This document shows, piece after piece, positions 53,611 to 63,782 of a DNA stretch of 64,000 nucleotides. The DNA is from Ruminococcus sp. GTDB lineage: Bacteria > Bacillota > Clostridia > Oscillospirales > Acutalibacteraceae. The translations under genes and the position numbers were made by a program. The notes beneath the pieces are model-generated. The model was not told where the DNA came from and did not search any database. It saw nothing but the letters and a program-made list of their open reading frames with translations. Numbering within the stretch: the first letter of the stretch is position 1; each line of letters opens with the position of its first letter. The stretch covers positions 1 to 64,000 of the forward strand of contig JAFTGL010000011.1 in assembly GCA_017457955.1 (NCBI GenBank). The letters are read 5' to 3'.

Positions 53611-54990
53611 CTACAAATGCAGCAGCGCTGTCGCGATCTGGAAATAAACGAACAGGGAGATCGCGTCGACGATCGTCGTGATGAACGGCGACGCCATGAC
53701 CGCGGGGTCAAAGCCGATCTGCTTGGCGATCATCGGCAGGGTACAGCCGACGAGCTTGGCGATGAAGATGGTGACGATCATCGTCAGGCACACCACCAGC
53801 GCGACCATCAGGGTGATCCCCTCGTTGTGGAGCACGAGGCGGTCAAAGAGCATGATCTTCGCAAAGTTCGCGGCGGCAAGCGTCACGCCGCACAACAGCG
53901 ATACCCGTGCCTCTTTGAAAATGACCTTGAAGATGTCCTTGAACTCGATCTCGCCCAGTGACAACGCACGGATGACGGTAACGCTCGCCTGGGAGCCGGA
54001 ATTACCGCCGGTATCCATCAGCATGGGGATGAACGCCGAGAGCACCAGAGAGCCTGCCAAAGCGTCCTCAAAGCCAGTGATGATCATGCCCGTGAAGGTC
54101 GCGGAGATCATCAGGATCAGCAGCCACGGGATACGCGCGATGAAGGTCTCGAACACGCCGATACGGTCGTAGGGCTTCTCGGTGTTCGGGGTGATAGCCG
54201 CCATCTTCTGGATATCCTCGGTAGCCTCTTCTTCCATGACGTCGATCGCGTCGTCGACGGTGACGATACCGACCAGACGGTTCTCTTTATCGACGACCGG
54301 CAGGGCGAGGAAATTATACTTGTTGAACATCTGGGCGACGACTTCCTGGTCGTCGAGGGTGTTGACCGAGATGACGTTGGTCTCCATGATGTTCTCGATG
54401 ACCTCGTCATCCTCAGAGAGCAGCAGGGTCTTGATGGTGACGATACCGATTAGGGTGGAGGAGCCGTCCGACACGTAGCAGGTATAGATCGTCTCCTTGT
54501 CGATACCGGTGCGGCGGATGCGCTTGATCGCTTCCTCCGCCGTCATCTTGGGTCTGAGGATGACGCACTCGGTCGTCATGATGGAGCCGGCGCTGTCCTC
54601 AGGGTACTTCAGTATTTCGTTGATTTCTTTTCTTGTTTCGGGATCAGCCTGACGGAGAATTCTTTTGACCACGTTCGCGGGCATTTCTTCGATCAGGTCG
54701 ACTGCGTCATCGACATACAGCTCGTCGATGATCTCTTTCAGCTCTGTATCCGAAAAGCCGTGGATCAAAAGCTCCTGCGTATCCTCGTCCATCTCGACGA
54801 AGGCGTCGGCAGCCGTCTCCTTCGGCAAAAGCCGGAACAGCAAAGCTGTTTTCTCACTCTGCAGATCCTCAAAAACCGCCGCGATATCGACGGGGTTCAT
54901 GGTATTGAGAATGTCGCGCAGAGTGGAATAGCGCTTGTTCTCGAGAAGGGTCTGGATCGTCTCGAACAAGCTCACCGTATTCCTTTCCAT
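53611..54990 (-). CDS. mgtE: Magnesium transporter MgtE
   Basis: A 459-residue Mg2+ channel. The N-terminal superhelical domain (about 20-130, DIAAVFEDL...LFRLLPKETAADAF), two CBS domains (about 137-258, IMTTECVILRPKMTAEEAI and VISVNTLDDQEVVAQMF) and a five-helix pore domain (about 285-459) with MLMDTGGNSGSQASVTVIRALSLGEI (the pore signature) are all present. The CBS and N domains sense internal Mg2+. A leader of about 245 bases precedes the gene and is probably a Mg2+-sensing riboswitch. Confidence 0.95.
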   Translation of the reverse strand: MERNTVSLFETIQTLLENKRYSTLRDILNTMNPVDIAAVFEDLQSEKTALLFRLLPKETAADAFVEMDEDTQELLIHGFSDTELKEIIDELYVDDAVDLIEEMPANVVKRILRQADPETRKEINEILKYPEDSAGSIMTTECVILRPKMTAEEAIKRIRRTGIDKETIYTCYVSDGSSTLIGIVTIKTLLLSEDDEVIENIMETNVISVNTLDDQEVVAQMFNKYNFLALPVVDKENRLVGIVTVDDAIDVMEEEATEDIQKMAAITPNTEKPYDRIGVFETFIARIPWLLILMISATFTGMIITGFEDALAGSLVLSAFIPMLMDTGGNSGSQASVTVIRALSLGEIEFKDIFKVIFKEARVSLLCGVTLAAANFAKIMLFDRLVLHNEGITLMVALVVCLTMIVTIFIAKLVGCTLPMIAKQIGFDPAVMASPFITTIVDAISLFVYFQIATALLHL

Positions 54991-55371: not shown

Positions 55372-55917
55372 ATGAACGATAAACTTGAAAAAACGCTCAA
55401 AGAGCTTTTGCCATATATCATCATCACAGGTATCATCTATCTCCTGCTGCCGCTGTTCATGAGCGGGGGCGAGAGCGCCGCGACCTACATCATCCAGCTC
55501 GGCGTCTTTCCGCTGACCGCCCTCGGCTGCGGCGTTTTTTATAAGAATACAAAGCACAAAAACAACCTGTGGCTCTGTGCTGTTGCTCCTGTATTCTACG
55601 CGCTGACCGCACTTTTATACGGCATGTGGCGCTCGTCGTGGTACACGGTGCTCATCTATCTTGTCGCCTATGCCCTGTGCGGCTACCTCGGATTGCTGCT
55701 GGGCGACGTGCTAAGCTTCGGCAAGGGCAGGGATACGGTGAAGAAATTTACCGAAAAAACCTCTCAGCGTGCCCGCAGGGTGAACGTGGAAGAGGAAGCA
55801 CAGCCCACTGAAGAATTCAAGGCGCAGGACCCCGAAGAGGATATGAGTCTCGACATCTCCACTACCGATGACGACATCGAAGCGATCCTCAACGATATCC
55901 ACAACCGCAAATCATAA
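55372..55917 (+). CDS. Four-helix membrane protein of unknown function
   Basis: A 181-residue protein. Hydrophobic helices lie at about 13-30, 38-54, 65-84 and 90-110. The C-terminal 70 residues are cytoplasmic, first basic then strongly acidic (EEEAQPTEEFKAQDPEEDMSLDISTTDDDIEAIL), with no known domain. The acidic tail could be a binding site for a partner protein. No family recognised. Confidence 0.7.
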   Translation: MNDKLEKTLKELLPYIIITGIIYLLLPLFMSGGESAATYIIQLGVFPLTALGCGVFYKNTKHKNNLWLCAVAPVFYALTALLYGMWRSSWYTVLIYLVAYALCGYLGLLLGDVLSFGKGRDTVKKFTEKTSQRARRVNVEEEAQPTEEFKAQDPEEDMSLDISTTDDDIEAILNDIHNRKS

Positions 55918-57695: not shown

Positions 57696-58451
57696 ATGAC
57701 AGACAACAAAAACGACAGATACAGAGATGACGAGCTCCTGATCGGGCGCAACCCGATCACCGAAGCGCTTTCCTCAGGACGTTCGGTCATCAAAGTGATG
57801 ATCGCCAAGGGCAATACCTCGGGCGCGGCGGTGGAGATCGCCGCCAAAGCGAAGAAGGCAGGCGTGCCGGTGCAGGAGGTCGAGCGCAAAAAGCTCGATT
57901 ACATGACAGGAGGCGCGGCGCATCAGGGCGTCGCAGCGCTGTGCGCGGTGAAGGAATACGCCTCGGTGGAGGACATCCTCGCCCTTGCCGAGGAGCGGCA
58001 GGAAGCTCCGTTCATCATCATCCTCGACGAGATCGAGGATCCGCACAACCTCGGCGCGATCATCCGCTCGGCAGAGTGCGCGGGCGCCCACGGCGTCATC
58101 ATCAAGAAACGCCGCTCGGCAGGGCTGACCTACACCGCCTACAAAGCCTCGGCAGGCGCGCTTGAGTACGTTCCCGTCGCGCGTGTCACGAACATTGCCG
58201 ATACCATCGACGACCTGAAAGCACGCAACATCTGGGTCTACGGCGCGGATATGGACGGAGAGGAGTACTGCAAAACCGATTTCAGCGGCGGGGCAGCTCT
58301 GGTCATCGGCAACGAGGGCAAGGGTATCTCACGCCTCGTACGCGAGAAATGCGACGTCATCGTATCGCTGCCGCTCAAAGGCAGGATCAATTCTCTCAAC
58401 GCCTCGGTCGCCGCGGGAATACTGATGTATAAGGTCGCGGAGAAGCGATAG
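57696..58451 (+). CDS. rlmB: 23S rRNA (guanosine-2'-O)-methyltransferase RlmB-like (SpoU family)
   Basis: A 251-residue TrmH/SpoU enzyme. The N-terminal L30-like substrate-binding part opens with LLIGRNPITEAL (14-25). The SAM-binding trefoil knot has LDEIEDPHNLGAIIRSAECAGAHGVI (motif 1, about 109-134), ALVIGNEGKGISRLVREKCD (motif 2, about 201-220) and VSLPLKGRINSLNASVAAGIL (motif 3, about 222-243). All catalytic residues (Asn, Arg, Glu, Ser/Asn) are kept. The ATG at 57696 is where the family starts; the frame upstream is not protein-like. Confidence 0.93.
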   Translation: MTDNKNDRYRDDELLIGRNPITEALSSGRSVIKVMIAKGNTSGAAVEIAAKAKKAGVPVQEVERKKLDYMTGGAAHQGVAALCAVKEYASVEDILALAEERQEAPFIIILDEIEDPHNLGAIIRSAECAGAHGVIIKKRRSAGLTYTAYKASAGALEYVPVARVTNIADTIDDLKARNIWVYGADMDGEEYCKTDFSGGAALVIGNEGKGISRLVREKCDVIVSLPLKGRINSLNASVAAGILMYKVAEKR

Positions 58452-58484
58452 CCAAAGGGAGCCTTAAGAAAGGAGATGAAAAAC

Positions 58485-61181
58485 ATGAGCATATTCCGCA
58501 GGGACAAGCATAAGGAGCAGGAAAAGCCCGCAGAGGCGGCACAATCGCTCGCTCTTGAAGCTGTACCCGAGACAGAGCCCGAAGAATTCACCGATATCAG
58601 CGACGCGGCATACGACTCATCACGATCTCTCGACAACAAGATGGAGGAAATCTACTCCACAAGAGATAAACAGGTCAAGTTCAAGCGCATGCAGCCGCTC
58701 GAAGCGGAAGCCGCCGCCAAGCGCAAGGAAGCCGCCAAGGACGACCTCATCCGCGGCAAGCTGGAGTTCAGCGCCGCAACCGACGACGAAACGCCCGAGG
58801 TCAAGCTCGAAGCGGAGCTCGACCCCAACGCCGTCGTCGCCGACGAGATCATCGAGGACATCGTCGACGTCAAGAAGCTGCGCAACATCTATGTACAGGA
58901 CATCGACGACATCGACGTCAGCCTTGACCCGATGGAGAGCCTTAACGAATATGAAAAGCGAGCCAACGACATGGCGCGTCATAACGCGCGCGCCGTGCAG
59001 ACGGAGCCCGAGGAACCTTACGTTCCCTCAGGTGATACCGTAGTCGCGAAGGTGCCCGTGTATCAGCACGAGGGCAGCGTGGACAAGCTCTACCTCAAGG
59101 CGGGACGCTTTACCGACGTGGTCGAGAACGAGTACGACGAGTACCTCAAATCCACCGACCCCACCATCTCCAAAAACTACCATACGACGAAGCCCCTGAT
59201 CAAGCCCCATCAAAGCCTGCTCTACACGCTCAGTCAGGTCGCCCAGCGGCACAGGAATGAGTCCGCCCAGAAGCAGAAGAGCAAGGAGATCATGCGGGAC
59301 AACTTTGACGAGGAACCGCAGAAGGAAGAGCCCGTCGTCAAACAGCCGAAGAGAAAGAAACGCTCCCGCGTCGGGAAATTCTTCCGCGTCTTGGGAGCGG
59401 TCATCACCTCGAGCGTCACCTCGCCCTCCGAGGACGAGCAGGAGCGCGCGATGGACTATAACAGCCGCGAGGACGAGATGTACATATCCGAAAAGACCCG
59501 CGGCAACATTAAACGTCAGGCGATCAGCCTCTCGCTGTACGCGCTGATCGCGGTCGCCATGCTGGGGCTTGTGATCTGGGAAGGCGTCGCGGGAGCGGCA
59601 ACGGTAGAAGCGAACGGCCCCGCAACCGCGTTCACCTACTGCGCGCTGAACCTGATCCTCACCGCCGCGCTGGGACTTGTCGCCCGCCACAACGTGATCG
59701 ACGGGTTGAAGCCCCTCATGCACTTCAAGTTCAACAGCAACACCGTGATCGCGCTGGCGTACATCGCCTGCGCCTTACAGAGCCTTGTCTCGGTATTCAC
59801 CGGCACGTCCTTTGTCGGCGGCGATCACCATCTGTACAGCTTCATCGTCGCGTTCGCGCTGATCCTCAGCACCACGGGACGCCTGCTGATGGCAGTACGC
59901 GTGCAGAGCAACCTGAGTTTTATCAGCGAGCGTTCTCCCGCCTACGCGGCAAAGATCTATAATGACGAGGAAACCGCCCGCCGCTTAGTCAGCGGCACCA
60001 CCACCTCGCGCGGAGTGGTCGCTTACCAGCACGTGACGAGCTTCCTCTCCGACTTTCTGAAAATCTCCTACGCACCCGATCCCAGCGAGGAGCTGACCGG
60101 CAAGATGGCGCCCATCGCCATCATCAGCTCGCTGGTCGTCACCATCCTGTACGCCTTCATCTTCAAGAGCGTGCAGGGCGCGGTATCGGCGCTGGCAGTC
60201 ATGCTGTGTATCGGTATCCCCTTCACCGGCATGCTGGCAGGCAACCTGCCGCTGCTGATCTTCAGCCGCCGCATGCTCAAGGAGGATGCGATGGTCGCGG
60301 GTTATCCCTCGGTGCGTCAGTTCTGCGACACCTCCGCGGTCATGATGAGCGCGGCTGACCTCTTCCCCGCGGGCTGCGTCACGATTGAAGAGCTCCTGCC
60401 CTTACAGCAGTACCGCGTCAACGAAAGCCTTTTGATGGCGACGGCGGTACTCAGGGAGGGCAACTCCCCCATCGCCCCCGCCTTTGACGAGCTGGTGATG
60501 GAGAACAACGGCGTGCTGCCCTCGGTCGAGAGCGTCATGTACGAGGACAAAAGCGGGCTGGTTGGCTGGATCGGCGGCGAACGCGTGCTGATCGGCAACA
60601 TGAAGCTGATGAACCGCTACCACATCACCATCCCGATGGACGTATCCCCCCGCCGCAAGAACGAAAAGGGTGCGGACATCACCTATATCGCGATCTCGGG
60701 TCAGGCGGTCGCCATCCTCGCGCTGAAATATACCGCGAACAAGATCGCCAAGGATCAGATTGGGCGTGCCGAGAGAAGCGGACTGGCTCTCGTGGTCAGC
60801 ACCACCGACGCAAACATCACCGCGGAGCTGATCGCCGACCGCTACGGCGTATTCTTCCGCTCGGTCAAGGTCACCGCCCCGGGCTACTCCAACGTTATCG
60901 ACGAAGCGATCACCAAGGTGGAAGAGACCTCCCGCGCCTATTTAGCGACCCGCGGACGGATCGGTTCGCTGGCGCGTGCCATCGGCGGGTGTATCGGGCT
61001 CAAATCCAACATCAGCCTCGGCATCGTCATCGAGATCTTCGGCACCCTGCTGGGGATCCTGCTGAGTGCGACGCTCGCGCTGTACGCCTCGGTCGCGCGG
61101 CTCTCTATCGTGGAGCTGATGATCTACATCGGCTTCTGGGTAGGAGCGACGATCATCGCGGAGCTGATCAAGAGACCGTAA
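58485..61181 (+). CDS. P-type-ATPase-like pseudoenzyme with long acidic N-terminus
   Basis: An 898-residue membrane protein. Residues 1-330 are hydrophilic, rich in Glu/Lys and without a fold that I recognise. The rest follows a P1B-type ATPase plan: helices 1-4 (about 345-480), helices 5-6 with IPFTGMLAGNLPLLIFSRRML, a P/N region and two final helices. At the phosphorylation site DKTGT is replaced by CDTSAVMMS (Asp615). The N-domain keeps SGLVGWIGGERVLIGNMKLM but lacks the His-Pro motif; TGD has become TTD (Asp775); GDGxND is missing (TRGRIGSLARAI instead). Ion pumping is therefore unlikely; a sensory or scaffold role is possible. The ATG at 58485 is nine bases behind AAAGGAG. It follows rlmB by 33 bases. 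Confidence 0.7.
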   Translation: MSIFRRDKHKEQEKPAEAAQSLALEAVPETEPEEFTDISDAAYDSSRSLDNKMEEIYSTRDKQVKFKRMQPLEAEAAAKRKEAAKDDLIRGKLEFSAATDDETPEVKLEAELDPNAVVADEIIEDIVDVKKLRNIYVQDIDDIDVSLDPMESLNEYEKRANDMARHNARAVQTEPEEPYVPSGDTVVAKVPVYQHEGSVDKLYLKAGRFTDVVENEYDEYLKSTDPTISKNYHTTKPLIKPHQSLLYTLSQVAQRHRNESAQKQKSKEIMRDNFDEEPQKEEPVVKQPKRKKRSRVGKFFRVLGAVITSSVTSPSEDEQERAMDYNSREDEMYISEKTRGNIKRQAISLSLYALIAVAMLGLVIWEGVAGAATVEANGPATAFTYCALNLILTAALGLVARHNVIDGLKPLMHFKFNSNTVIALAYIACALQSLVSVFTGTSFVGGDHHLYSFIVAFALILSTTGRLLMAVRVQSNLSFISERSPAYAAKIYNDEETARRLVSGTTTSRGVVAYQHVTSFLSDFLKISYAPDPSEELTGKMAPIAIISSLVVTILYAFIFKSVQGAVSALAVMLCIGIPFTGMLAGNLPLLIFSRRMLKEDAMVAGYPSVRQFCDTSAVMMSAADLFPAGCVTIEELLPLQQYRVNESLLMATAVLREGNSPIAPAFDELVMENNGVLPSVESVMYEDKSGLVGWIGGERVLIGNMKLMNRYHITIPMDVSPRRKNEKGADITYIAISGQAVAILALKYTANKIAKDQIGRAERSGLALVVSTTDANITAELIADRYGVFFRSVKVTAPGYSNVIDEAITKVEETSRAYLATRGRIGSLARAIGGCIGLKSNISLGIVIEIFGTLLGILLSATLALYASVARLSIVELMIYIGFWVGATIIAELIKRP

Positions 61182-61940: not shown

Positions 61941-62582
61941 TTATTTTGTCGAGATCAAGTTGCCGTCGCCGTCGTACTTCTGCTCGGTGAAGGTGCCGTC
62001 GTCGTTGTCGGTGTAGGTGATATAGGATTCCACCTCGCCGTTCGCGTCATAAACGGTCATCTTGATCAGCTGATCCTCGTCATCATACTCATAGGAACGC
62101 CAGCTGAGCAGATTATCGCTGCCGTCGTATTTGTACACCGCGGACTCCGCACCGAAGTCGGTGTACTCGGTGGTGATGACAGAGGTCGTCTCGCCCTTGG
62201 AATTCAGATCGGTGCGCTTGGTGACAAGCCCCTCGGCAGTCTTTTCGTACAGCGTCTGACCGGTGACCTCACCGTTCGCGTTGTACATGATATCCTTGAT
62301 CGAGTTGCCGTTCTCGTCATACTCATAGCCGATCGAACTGACTGGCTTGCCGGTCGCATCGTAGGTATAGTTGCGGATGACGCGGTTTTCGTCGTCATAC
62401 TCGTTCTTATAGTAGCTGGTCGGGGAACCGTCCTCATTCACGCTGAACGGCGTCAGGTCGTCGGACACGGAGGATACGGCTTCGGTCGCGGTATCGGCTT
62501 CCGGCTTTTTCTGACAGGCAGAGAGAGACAGGACGGATACAGCGAGGATGATGACCAGCAGTAAAGATACAGTTCGTTTCAT
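61941..62582 (-). CDS. YD-repeat-like lipoprotein
   Basis: A 213-residue lipoprotein with lipobox LSAC (Cys23). The mature part has six or seven short repeats of about 20 residues around YxYDxxGxxxxxxxY (for example YEYDENGNSIKD, YNANGEVTG, YEYDDEDQL and YDANGEVESY). Such YD/RHS-like repeats form beta-hairpin sheets that often bind carbohydrate or other surface polymers. There is no toxin or protease domain. The ATG at 62582 follows AGGAG; an upstream in-frame start has no ribosome site. Confidence 0.75.
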   Translation of the reverse strand: MKRTVSLLLVIILAVSVLSLSACQKKPEADTATEAVSSVSDDLTPFSVNEDGSPTSYYKNEYDDENRVIRNYTYDATGKPVSSIGYEYDENGNSIKDIMYNANGEVTGQTLYEKTAEGLVTKRTDLNSKGETTSVITTEYTDFGAESAVYKYDGSDNLLSWRSYEYDDEDQLIKMTVYDANGEVESYITYTDNDDGTFTEQKYDGDGNLISTK

Positions 62583-62669
62583 AATACTTCTCCTAATTGC
62601 GGAATACATAATGTAGTTATTATAGCAATTATTCTCGGTTAAGTCAACCGTGAATCAGGAGGGGTCAGG

Positions 62670-63782
62670 ATGGTACTGAATACGGAGAAGAAAATACTGC
62701 TGAGGTATCCGATCACAGGGTTCCCGCATAGGTCAGAGCTGTGTCAGATCGACGCGGGAGAGGATTTTTTGCCCGCGATCTATACGGCTTTCAGCGGCAC
62801 GACGGCGCGGACAGCCGCGGTGCTGAGCATGAGCGCGGAGGATGAAAAGCTCCTGCGGCAGAACCTCGAAAACCTCGGCTATACGGACATCATGACGATC
62901 GCGTTCACGCATACCGACCGCGGCAAGATCGGCATGTGTATCGGCAGTCGCGTCAAAGACAATCTGCTGCAGATCGCCGTCGTCCTGCGCGGAACGACAG
63001 GCGACGAGTGGTACTCAAACTTCGACATCGGCTACTCTGCAGAGCACAGCGGCTTTGCGAGGGCGGCTGACTTTGCGGAGCTGAAACTCGGAGACTATGT
63101 TTTCACCCACGCCATCGGCAGAGACCCCGTCTTTTTCATCACGGGCTACAGCCGCGGCGGGGCTGTGGCGAATATCCTCGCAAAACGCCTGTGCGACCGC
63201 TACGGGCTAGAACAGGTCTGCGCCTACACCTTCGCCTCTCCCGCGACCACCATCAGCCGCCGCACCAACCGCTACAGCACGATCTTCAACCTTGTCAGAG
63301 ACGAGGATTTCTTCACCCGCGTCCCGCTCACAGGCTGGGGCTACACCCGCTACGGCAAGTCGCTTTCCATGTCAGACGCGGGCGACATGACCGCCCGCTT
63401 CAAGGAGCTGACGGGCAAGGAATACATCGGCTTCACTCGGCAGGCGGCTGTGGACAATTTCCTGCATGCGGCAATGAACCTTGCGCCCAACGTCCACGCC
63501 TACTACGAACGACGCAGGCAGGTCGGCGACAAACGGCTGAGCCTGTACGAGTTCATGCGCGCGGTCGCGGACATGCTCAGCGAGAACATGGACGAAGCCG
63601 CCGCGGACGTCTTTCTCAGCGCGATGGTGTCGGAGTACACCGACCTCATCAGCTTTCTCTCCAGCGGAGCGGATCTCTACGAGCTGATCGGCTCAGCGGG
63701 CGGAGTGCCGAAGTGCAGTGTCGCGGACAGCCACTGCCCTGCCGCTTATATGGCGGCGCTGGATGTTTTTCTCCAGAAGTAG
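62670..63782 (+). CDS. Class 3 lipase-like alpha/beta hydrolase
   Basis: A 370-residue protein without signal peptide. Strand IAVVLRGTTGDEWYSNF (about 102-118; oxyanion and lid entry), nucleophile elbow FFITGYSRGGAVANILAKRL (Ser at about 161), FASPATT (about 188) and VRDEDFFTRVPLTGWGYTRYG (Asp region, about 209) match lipase class 3. The C-terminal 100 residues are helical with a possible His in NFLHAAMN. Substrate unknown, perhaps an intracellular lipid. AGGAGGGG precedes the ATG. Its last 90 bases overlap the convergent MecA-like frame. Confidence 0.82.
   Translation: MVLNTEKKILLRYPITGFPHRSELCQIDAGEDFLPAIYTAFSGTTARTAAVLSMSAEDEKLLRQNLENLGYTDIMTIAFTHTDRGKIGMCIGSRVKDNLLQIAVVLRGTTGDEWYSNFDIGYSAEHSGFARAADFAELKLGDYVFTHAIGRDPVFFITGYSRGGAVANILAKRLCDRYGLEQVCAYTFASPATTISRRTNRYSTIFNLVRDEDFFTRVPLTGWGYTRYGKSLSMSDAGDMTARFKELTGKEYIGFTRQAAVDNFLHAAMNLAPNVHAYYERRRQVGDKRLSLYEFMRAVADMLSENMDEAAADVFLSAMVSEYTDLISFLSSGADLYELIGSAGGVPKCSVADSHCPAAYMAALDVFLQK

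Follow-up and report, generated by a model that had tools for sequence, protein, structure and literature searches.

The window analysed here, a 64,000-nucleotide stretch of Ruminococcus sp. DNA (GenBank assembly GCA_017457955.1, contig JAFTGL010000011.1, positions 1 to 64,000), contains a gene whose product is an order-specific, catalytically stripped relative of the P1B (copper-pump-like) ATPases. This pseudo-P1B-ATPase gene lies next to rlmB and is held intact by purifying selection; relatives occur across its order, which is probably Oscillospirales. We think that its product acts as a non-pumping, membrane-anchored scaffold or receptor, a reading to which we give a probability of about 0.6.

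Kinship with P1B ATPases and loss of the catalytic set

The family profile aligned with real CopA proteins at an E value of 1e-29 over 519 columns (hhalign), and a sequence search of the PDB with the window protein returned Legionella CopA (3rfu; 1.3e-11). In NCBIfam, the window protein matched CopA (1e-11) and ATPase-IB_hvy (3.9e-11), both far under their curated cut-offs, as were the scores for every other model it touched; a Pfam search gave no significant match. Among 35 family cores tested, 27 matched the NCBIfam CopA model at ≤0.001 and one matched any Pfam family, so the family is unnamed in the libraries tried. The AlphaFold model is confident, and the top PDB structural matches to this predicted structure are CopA and ATP7B. 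The predicted fold and helix layout, including the P1B-specific pair MA/MB (our helix assignments), are those of a P1B ATPase. A preliminary description of this DNA, made from sequence alone, had recognized that layout and an N-domain segment, and had named an unrelated transporter family as the match that would overturn its view. Its structural check came out in its favor, and the CopA profile alignment and P1B structural matches rule out an unrelated transporter.

The resemblance is closest to the P1B-1 copper-exporting ATPases (CopA and ATP7B; PDB 3rfu, 4bbj, and 7si7), which share the order MA-MB-M1-M2-(A)-M3-M4-P-N-P-M5-M6 and the N-domain fold. In a tree, 28 pseudo-ATPases and 30 real P1B ATPases fell on separate sides with 100/100 support and long branches. 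Given those long branches, the unusual composition of ten rows, and rooting at the midpoint of a tree that covered P1B among the P-type classes, the tree bears on the separation of the two groups and not on where within P1B the pseudo-ATPases arose.

Unlike the P1B-1 pumps, the pseudo-ATPase lacks the catalytic and metal-site motifs. In the window protein (residue numbers follow the 901-amino-acid version, ATG 58476), S625-AADL (window 60348-60362) aligns with the DKTGT of the pumps, TTD occupies the position of TGD with the Asp (D778) retained, the GDGxND stretch falls in a gap of the CopA alignment, and GIP stands at the CPC position of M4, both Cys being gone. Only ∼37 residues of the A domain are left between M2 and M3, without TGES. 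The preliminary description had reported three motif losses, which need adjusting: CDTSAVMMS, offered as the replacement for DKTGT, merely ends at the aligned Ser; TGD has indeed become TTD but is not wholly lost, since D778 is kept; and GDGxND is missing, as claimed, though as a gap and not by substitution. Beyond these three, TGES, the CPC Cys, and the bulk of the A domain are also lost.

The same losses run through the relatives, which we collected as 181 loci encoding 160 distinct proteins (74 from outside the genus and 86 from within it, a few of them truncated). None of the 160 has DKTG at the phosphorylation site, Lys at residue 626 (the Lys of DKTGT), or TGES in place, the sole TGES match (L131) sitting in the N domain; nor does any have GDGxND in place, although at least two are truncated before that site. 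Gly at residue 777 (TGD) was seen in one same-genus row among the matches listed (the eight commonest residues were counted), and Cys at each of the two CPC positions in 1 of 160. P1B ATPases bind nucleotide through N-domain residues that comprise the His of HP, GxG, and GN; the His (residue 664) is absent from all 74 outside-genus and all 86 same-genus rows. Four apparent matches to canonical motifs (L131, L148, L181, and L204; L148 and L204 are from one genome) were rejected as misplaced, lying in the tail or the N domain. As controls, six real pumps of the same genus have DKTGT, TGD, and GDGxND, and the 30 real P1B ATPases of the tree have DKTG, GDGxND, and CPC. Thus, the orthologues with an intact DKTGT that would have pointed to simple decay in this genome did not turn up.

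The roles of the DKTGT Lys, GDGxND, and TGES in the phosphorylation cycle belong to the established P-type mechanism. Since all three are missing, the cycle cannot run as it does in known pumps, and the protein probably neither phosphorylates nor pumps any longer.

Distribution, selection, and the place behind rlmB

The family profile finds a match at E ≤1e-42 in 233 of the 238 genomes, and in 128 of the 129 genera, sampled from the order; positions were given for part of these matches, and among the matches listed nearly the whole profile is spanned. The motif losses were observed in 24 families. Of 59 near genomes, 58 match, but two (G021 and G031) do so via real pumps alone, and G039 has no match. 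Outside the order the picture differs. In the class sample, six genomes of the same family or order match over the full length at ≤1e-121, whereas none of the 141 genomes from other orders has a relative at E ≤1e-42: 136 match as ordinary pumps do, the best among the matches listed at 2.8e-37 in the middle part, and 5 lack a match at 1e-10. In the phylum sample, 3 of 249 genomes match at 1e-42, all of this order; the kinship of the 226 unmatched genomes is not listed. Of the 194 confirmed loci, the 80 retained come from records labelled Ruminococcus, Oscillospiraceae, Ruminococcaceae, Clostridia, or similar, often of rumen or gut origin. Such conservation across the order excludes a chance origin of the frame.

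Purifying selection is evident from the ratio of nonsynonymous to synonymous substitution rates (dN/dS), which, by a simple counting method and at dS of 0.6 to 1.0, was 0.16 to 0.19 against seven relatives for the whole frame, 0.16 to 0.19 for the core, and 0.14 to 0.19 for the tail. These values and the gene's distribution bear out the suggestion of the preliminary description that selection has kept the membrane frame but not phosphorylation. A homologous fold, a missing catalytic set, and purifying selection, by which a pseudoenzyme is recognized, are all found here, with the inactivity itself predicted from sequence.

The rlmB gene lies directly upstream on the same strand at 57 of 59 order-level loci with at least 700 nt of upstream sequence (a count that includes up to three same-genus loci, L147, L177, and L178) and at 76 of 78 loci of the same-genus set. 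At L031 it precedes the first half of a split frame; at L076 it is ∼610 nt away from the pseudo-ATPase gene; at L074 none lies within 916 nt; and at L052 an Obg-like frame (recognized by eye, L052:3038-4498) takes its position, with no rlmB in ∼4.5 kb. Downstream, an elongation factor G-like gene follows at 18 of 76 loci, in other families (L031:6163-8277 matches NF009381 above cut-off; the other loci were assigned by clustering), while rpe was seen downstream nowhere but within this genus and in some other members of the family. The preliminary description had placed the gene between rlmB and rpe and taken it for a long-standing chromosomal gene; both flanking genes are confirmed, and the rlmB side supports that age, rpe being a neighbor in a narrower group. 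A stop interrupts the frame at L031 (G057:C38; TGA) and in G312:C2 (TAA), reflecting either a split gene or an assembly error.

Proposed role and its alternatives

Residues at the old catalytic loops are conserved in the family's own fashion: D778 (73 of 74 relatives outside the genus, 83 of 84 within; two truncated rows were excluded wherever n = 84), N780 (63 of 74 and 84 of 84), Y752 (69 of 74 and 84 of 84), P631 (61 of 74 and 86 of 86), G694 (72 of 74 and 84 of 84), and G707 (74 of 74 and 84 of 84). Y752 occupies the place of the Asp in the pumps' A-D-x-x-K stretch. Together, these residues may form a binding site. We propose that the eight-helix membrane core would anchor a cytosolic head whose former N/P interface would have been rebuilt as a putative binding site (D778-x-N780, Y752, [DE]628-x-[FY]630-P631, and G707); the long N-terminal tail would recruit a cytosolic partner via a short motif, and the protein, tethered to the membrane, would serve as scaffold or receptor to a partner or ligand that is likewise conserved across the order.

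The charged tail, presumed to be disordered, was correctly noted in the preliminary description as an extra region, but its length is ∼345 residues instead of 330. Near its N-terminus a motif, [FY][ST][LIV][DE][DE]ILxE, recurs in many families, and KMEEIYST is taken as the genus version of it. Outside the genus, 34 of 63 complete tails carry a relaxed form of the motif (0.5 in shuffled tails), and the genus form occurs in 43 of 81 same-genus tails (0.0 in shuffled). A second motif has invariant columns G210, F212, E219, Y220, Y223, and S226 in a 15-sequence genus alignment. When a strict DNA pattern for the first motif was run on 14 genomes, 12 matches were found in 11 genomes, of which 10 were in the pseudo-ATPase gene, one in a short protein (L254), and one in a doubtful frame (L255); reading the pattern backward gave 1 match. 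With 10 of the 12 matches in these 14 genomes falling in the gene itself, we rejected the idea of a recruiting motif common to many proteins. Separately, a small membrane protein (by eye; window 55372-55917; no NCBIfam match at 1e-5) ends in DDDIEAILNDIHNRKS, which resembles the tail motif but is at the C-terminus, and L087:2546-3205 has a similar C-terminal end, DIDAILSEIQNRR.

Several points weigh against a scaffold or receptor. No partner, ligand, or phenotype was found, the role being deduced from what is lost and kept. The relaxed motif is absent from 29 of 63 tails outside the genus and present in just 18 of 81 same-genus tails (1.3 in shuffled); counting began only after it had been noticed, the tails are related by descent, and a copy carrying the motif was the reason for picking most of the 14 genomes. 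Outside the genus, site 625 is of only middling variability (more variable than 296 of 560 core sites), and 68 of the 74 relatives there still carry Asp at one of positions 625 and 626. The gene was not found in 5 of 238 genomes of the order (G230, G253, G266, G267, and G377), nor in G021 and G031 of the genus. Nevertheless, we consider transport, pump regulation, and altered chemistry less likely than a scaffold or receptor. In a narrower version, the protein would be an order-defining, membrane-anchored adaptor that uses its former active site and its tail motif to engage a ribosome- or translation-linked partner. The fixed place behind rlmB and the elongation factor G-like gene at some loci hint at this version, which we regard as a long shot.

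Homologous folds can pair, and the protein might be a regulatory pseudo-subunit that pairs with and tunes the cell's real CopA-like P1B pump, which we think improbable. The pseudo-ATPase (233 of 238 genomes) does co-occur with real P1B ATPases (236 of 238 at 1e-60), but co-occurrence says little when both genes are near universal. The linked gene is rlmB and not a pump, and in this genome the real P1B ATPase is on another contig, C15. In G263 and G278, the pseudo-ATPase occurs where no P1B match reaches 1e-60; this weakens pump regulation only slightly, as the two genomes are incomplete (94 and 97%).

Similarly doubtful is a role in transport, or as a regulated conduit, that dispenses with phosphorylation but retains the membrane path of P1B ATPases. 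The helix layout is retained, as is the M4 proline P582 (58 of 74 outside the genus, 86 of 86 within). However, the CPC ligands are gone, the energy-coupling parts are all missing, and outside the genus the assigned helices share few polar consensus residues (R351, D422, S423, Y884, and W888), with R351, D422, and S423 near helix ends. The lack of metal ligands and the few shared polar membrane residues make transport unlikely, and they disfavor the passive conduit that the preliminary description had suggested. The two other functions it offered, a sensor and a scaffold for cell-envelope proteins, are equally compatible with these data.

Less probable again is that the protein is still a HAD-fold enzyme, its nucleophile shifted to an Asp at residue 625 or 626 and its chemistry non-canonical, along the lines argued for human ERMA/TMEM94. 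It retains some probability because Asp persists at one of the two positions in many relatives: outside the genus, it is at 625 in 24 of 74 and at 626 in 44 more, with 6 having neither, and Thr776 and Asp778 of TGD are mostly retained. Within the genus, however, Asp is at 625 in 34 of 86 (the other residues among the rows listed are N, S, E, R, T, G, or K), and 52 of 86, the window protein among them, have it at neither position; the site is more variable there than 470 of 560 core sites. The complete absence of Lys 626, GDGxND, and TGES from their places also argues against such an enzyme.

That the gene is decaying and on its way out, as its lost motifs might suggest from the window alone, has a negligible probability, local decay being ruled out by order-wide conservation and dN/dS in core and tail: the losses are common to 24 families, and internal stops were seen in two genomes (G057 and G312) among the matches listed.

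Gene layout, precedents, and significance

The frame at 58476-61181 has 901 codons and no interruption. ATG 58485 would give 898 amino acids and ATG 58476 901; we favor the former because AAGGAG at 58470-58475 fits it better. The uninterrupted 898-codon frame of the preliminary description therefore stands, within a longest frame of 901 amino acids. Features are collected in Table 1.

Table 1. Features of the pseudo-P1B-ATPase gene and its upstream neighbor in the window
Feature	Position	Strand	Basis
rlmB, directly upstream	57696..58451	+	TIGR00186 2.6e-75, above cut-off; start inferred from start of profile match
Shine-Dalgarno-like AAGGAG	58470..58475	+	Sequence, by eye; 9 nt before ATG 58485
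Pseudo-P1B-ATPase gene	58485..61181	+	Open frame, P1B homology, predicted fold, relatives across the order
Charged N-terminal tail	58485..59510	+	Sequence; tail dN/dS 0.14-0.19
Tail motif KMEEIYST	58638..58661	+	Aligned position
Second tail motif KAGRFTDVVENEYDEYLKS	59097..59153	+	Conserved in 15-sequence genus alignment
Helices MA and MB, P1B-specific N-terminal pair	59517..59723	+	AlphaFold helices, hhalign to CopA; authors' assignment
Helices M1 and M2	59736..59930	+	AlphaFold helices, hhalign to CopA; authors' assignment
Actuator (A) domain remnant, ∼37 residues, without TGES	59940..60050	+	Alignments, AlphaFold model
Helices M3 and M4, with GIP at the CPC position and P582 retained	60081..60281	+	AlphaFold model, alignments
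S625-AADLFP where pumps have DKTGTxT; family motif [DE]-x-[FY]-P	60348..60368	+	Alignments, residue counts
N-domain fold	60372..60731	+	Profile alignment, AlphaFold model, structural match, residue counts
Reduced second half of P domain, TTDANIT (D778, N780), without GDGxND stretch	60741..60950	+	Alignments, AlphaFold model
Helices M5 and M6, W888 nearly invariant	60960..61166	+	AlphaFold model, alignments

Elsewhere in the window, a magnesium transporter gene, mgtE (53611-54990, minus strand; TIGR00400, above cut-off), lies a few genes away. A lipoprotein-like frame with YD-type repeats (by eye) is at 61941-62609 (minus strand). The 370-amino-acid frame at 62670-63782 (plus strand) contains, by eye, a lipase-like GYSRGG and matches nothing in NCBIfam at 1e-5.

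Judging from the accessible portions of the relevant reports, the closest published parallel is human TMEM94/ERMA, a eukaryotic endoplasmic reticulum protein with ten helices and P-type architecture, in which GDGVND is replaced, TGES is absent, and DKQGI (Asp-Lys) stands at the phosphorylation site; its catalytic status is disputed, one group describing ATP-dependent Mg2+ uptake and another no ATPase activity (PMC12134183, PMC13322241). The pseudo-ATPase shares the architecture, the altered GDGxND region, and the lack of TGES but, on the same partial view of TMEM94/ERMA, differs in being bacterial and P1B-like, with eight assigned helices and no relative with Lys at 626. A 2014 survey, as far as its accessible text goes, counted, among 9,634 P-type sequences, 22 whose DKTGT was not intact and described them as single point mutations (PMC3896382), not as a conserved family without the whole catalytic set. 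Among the literature matches listed, with most subscription papers outside the scope, we found no description of a pseudo-P1B-ATPase family.

P-type ATPases are defined by their aspartyl-phosphate cycle. An order that almost always retains a P-type ATPase stripped of its catalytic parts would plainly exemplify the conversion of a pump into a non-pump, and it raises the question of what the P-type frame does without ATP. If the order is Oscillospirales, as seems likely, it includes many gut commensals, and a near-universal, so far untouched membrane gene would offer a handle on its biology.
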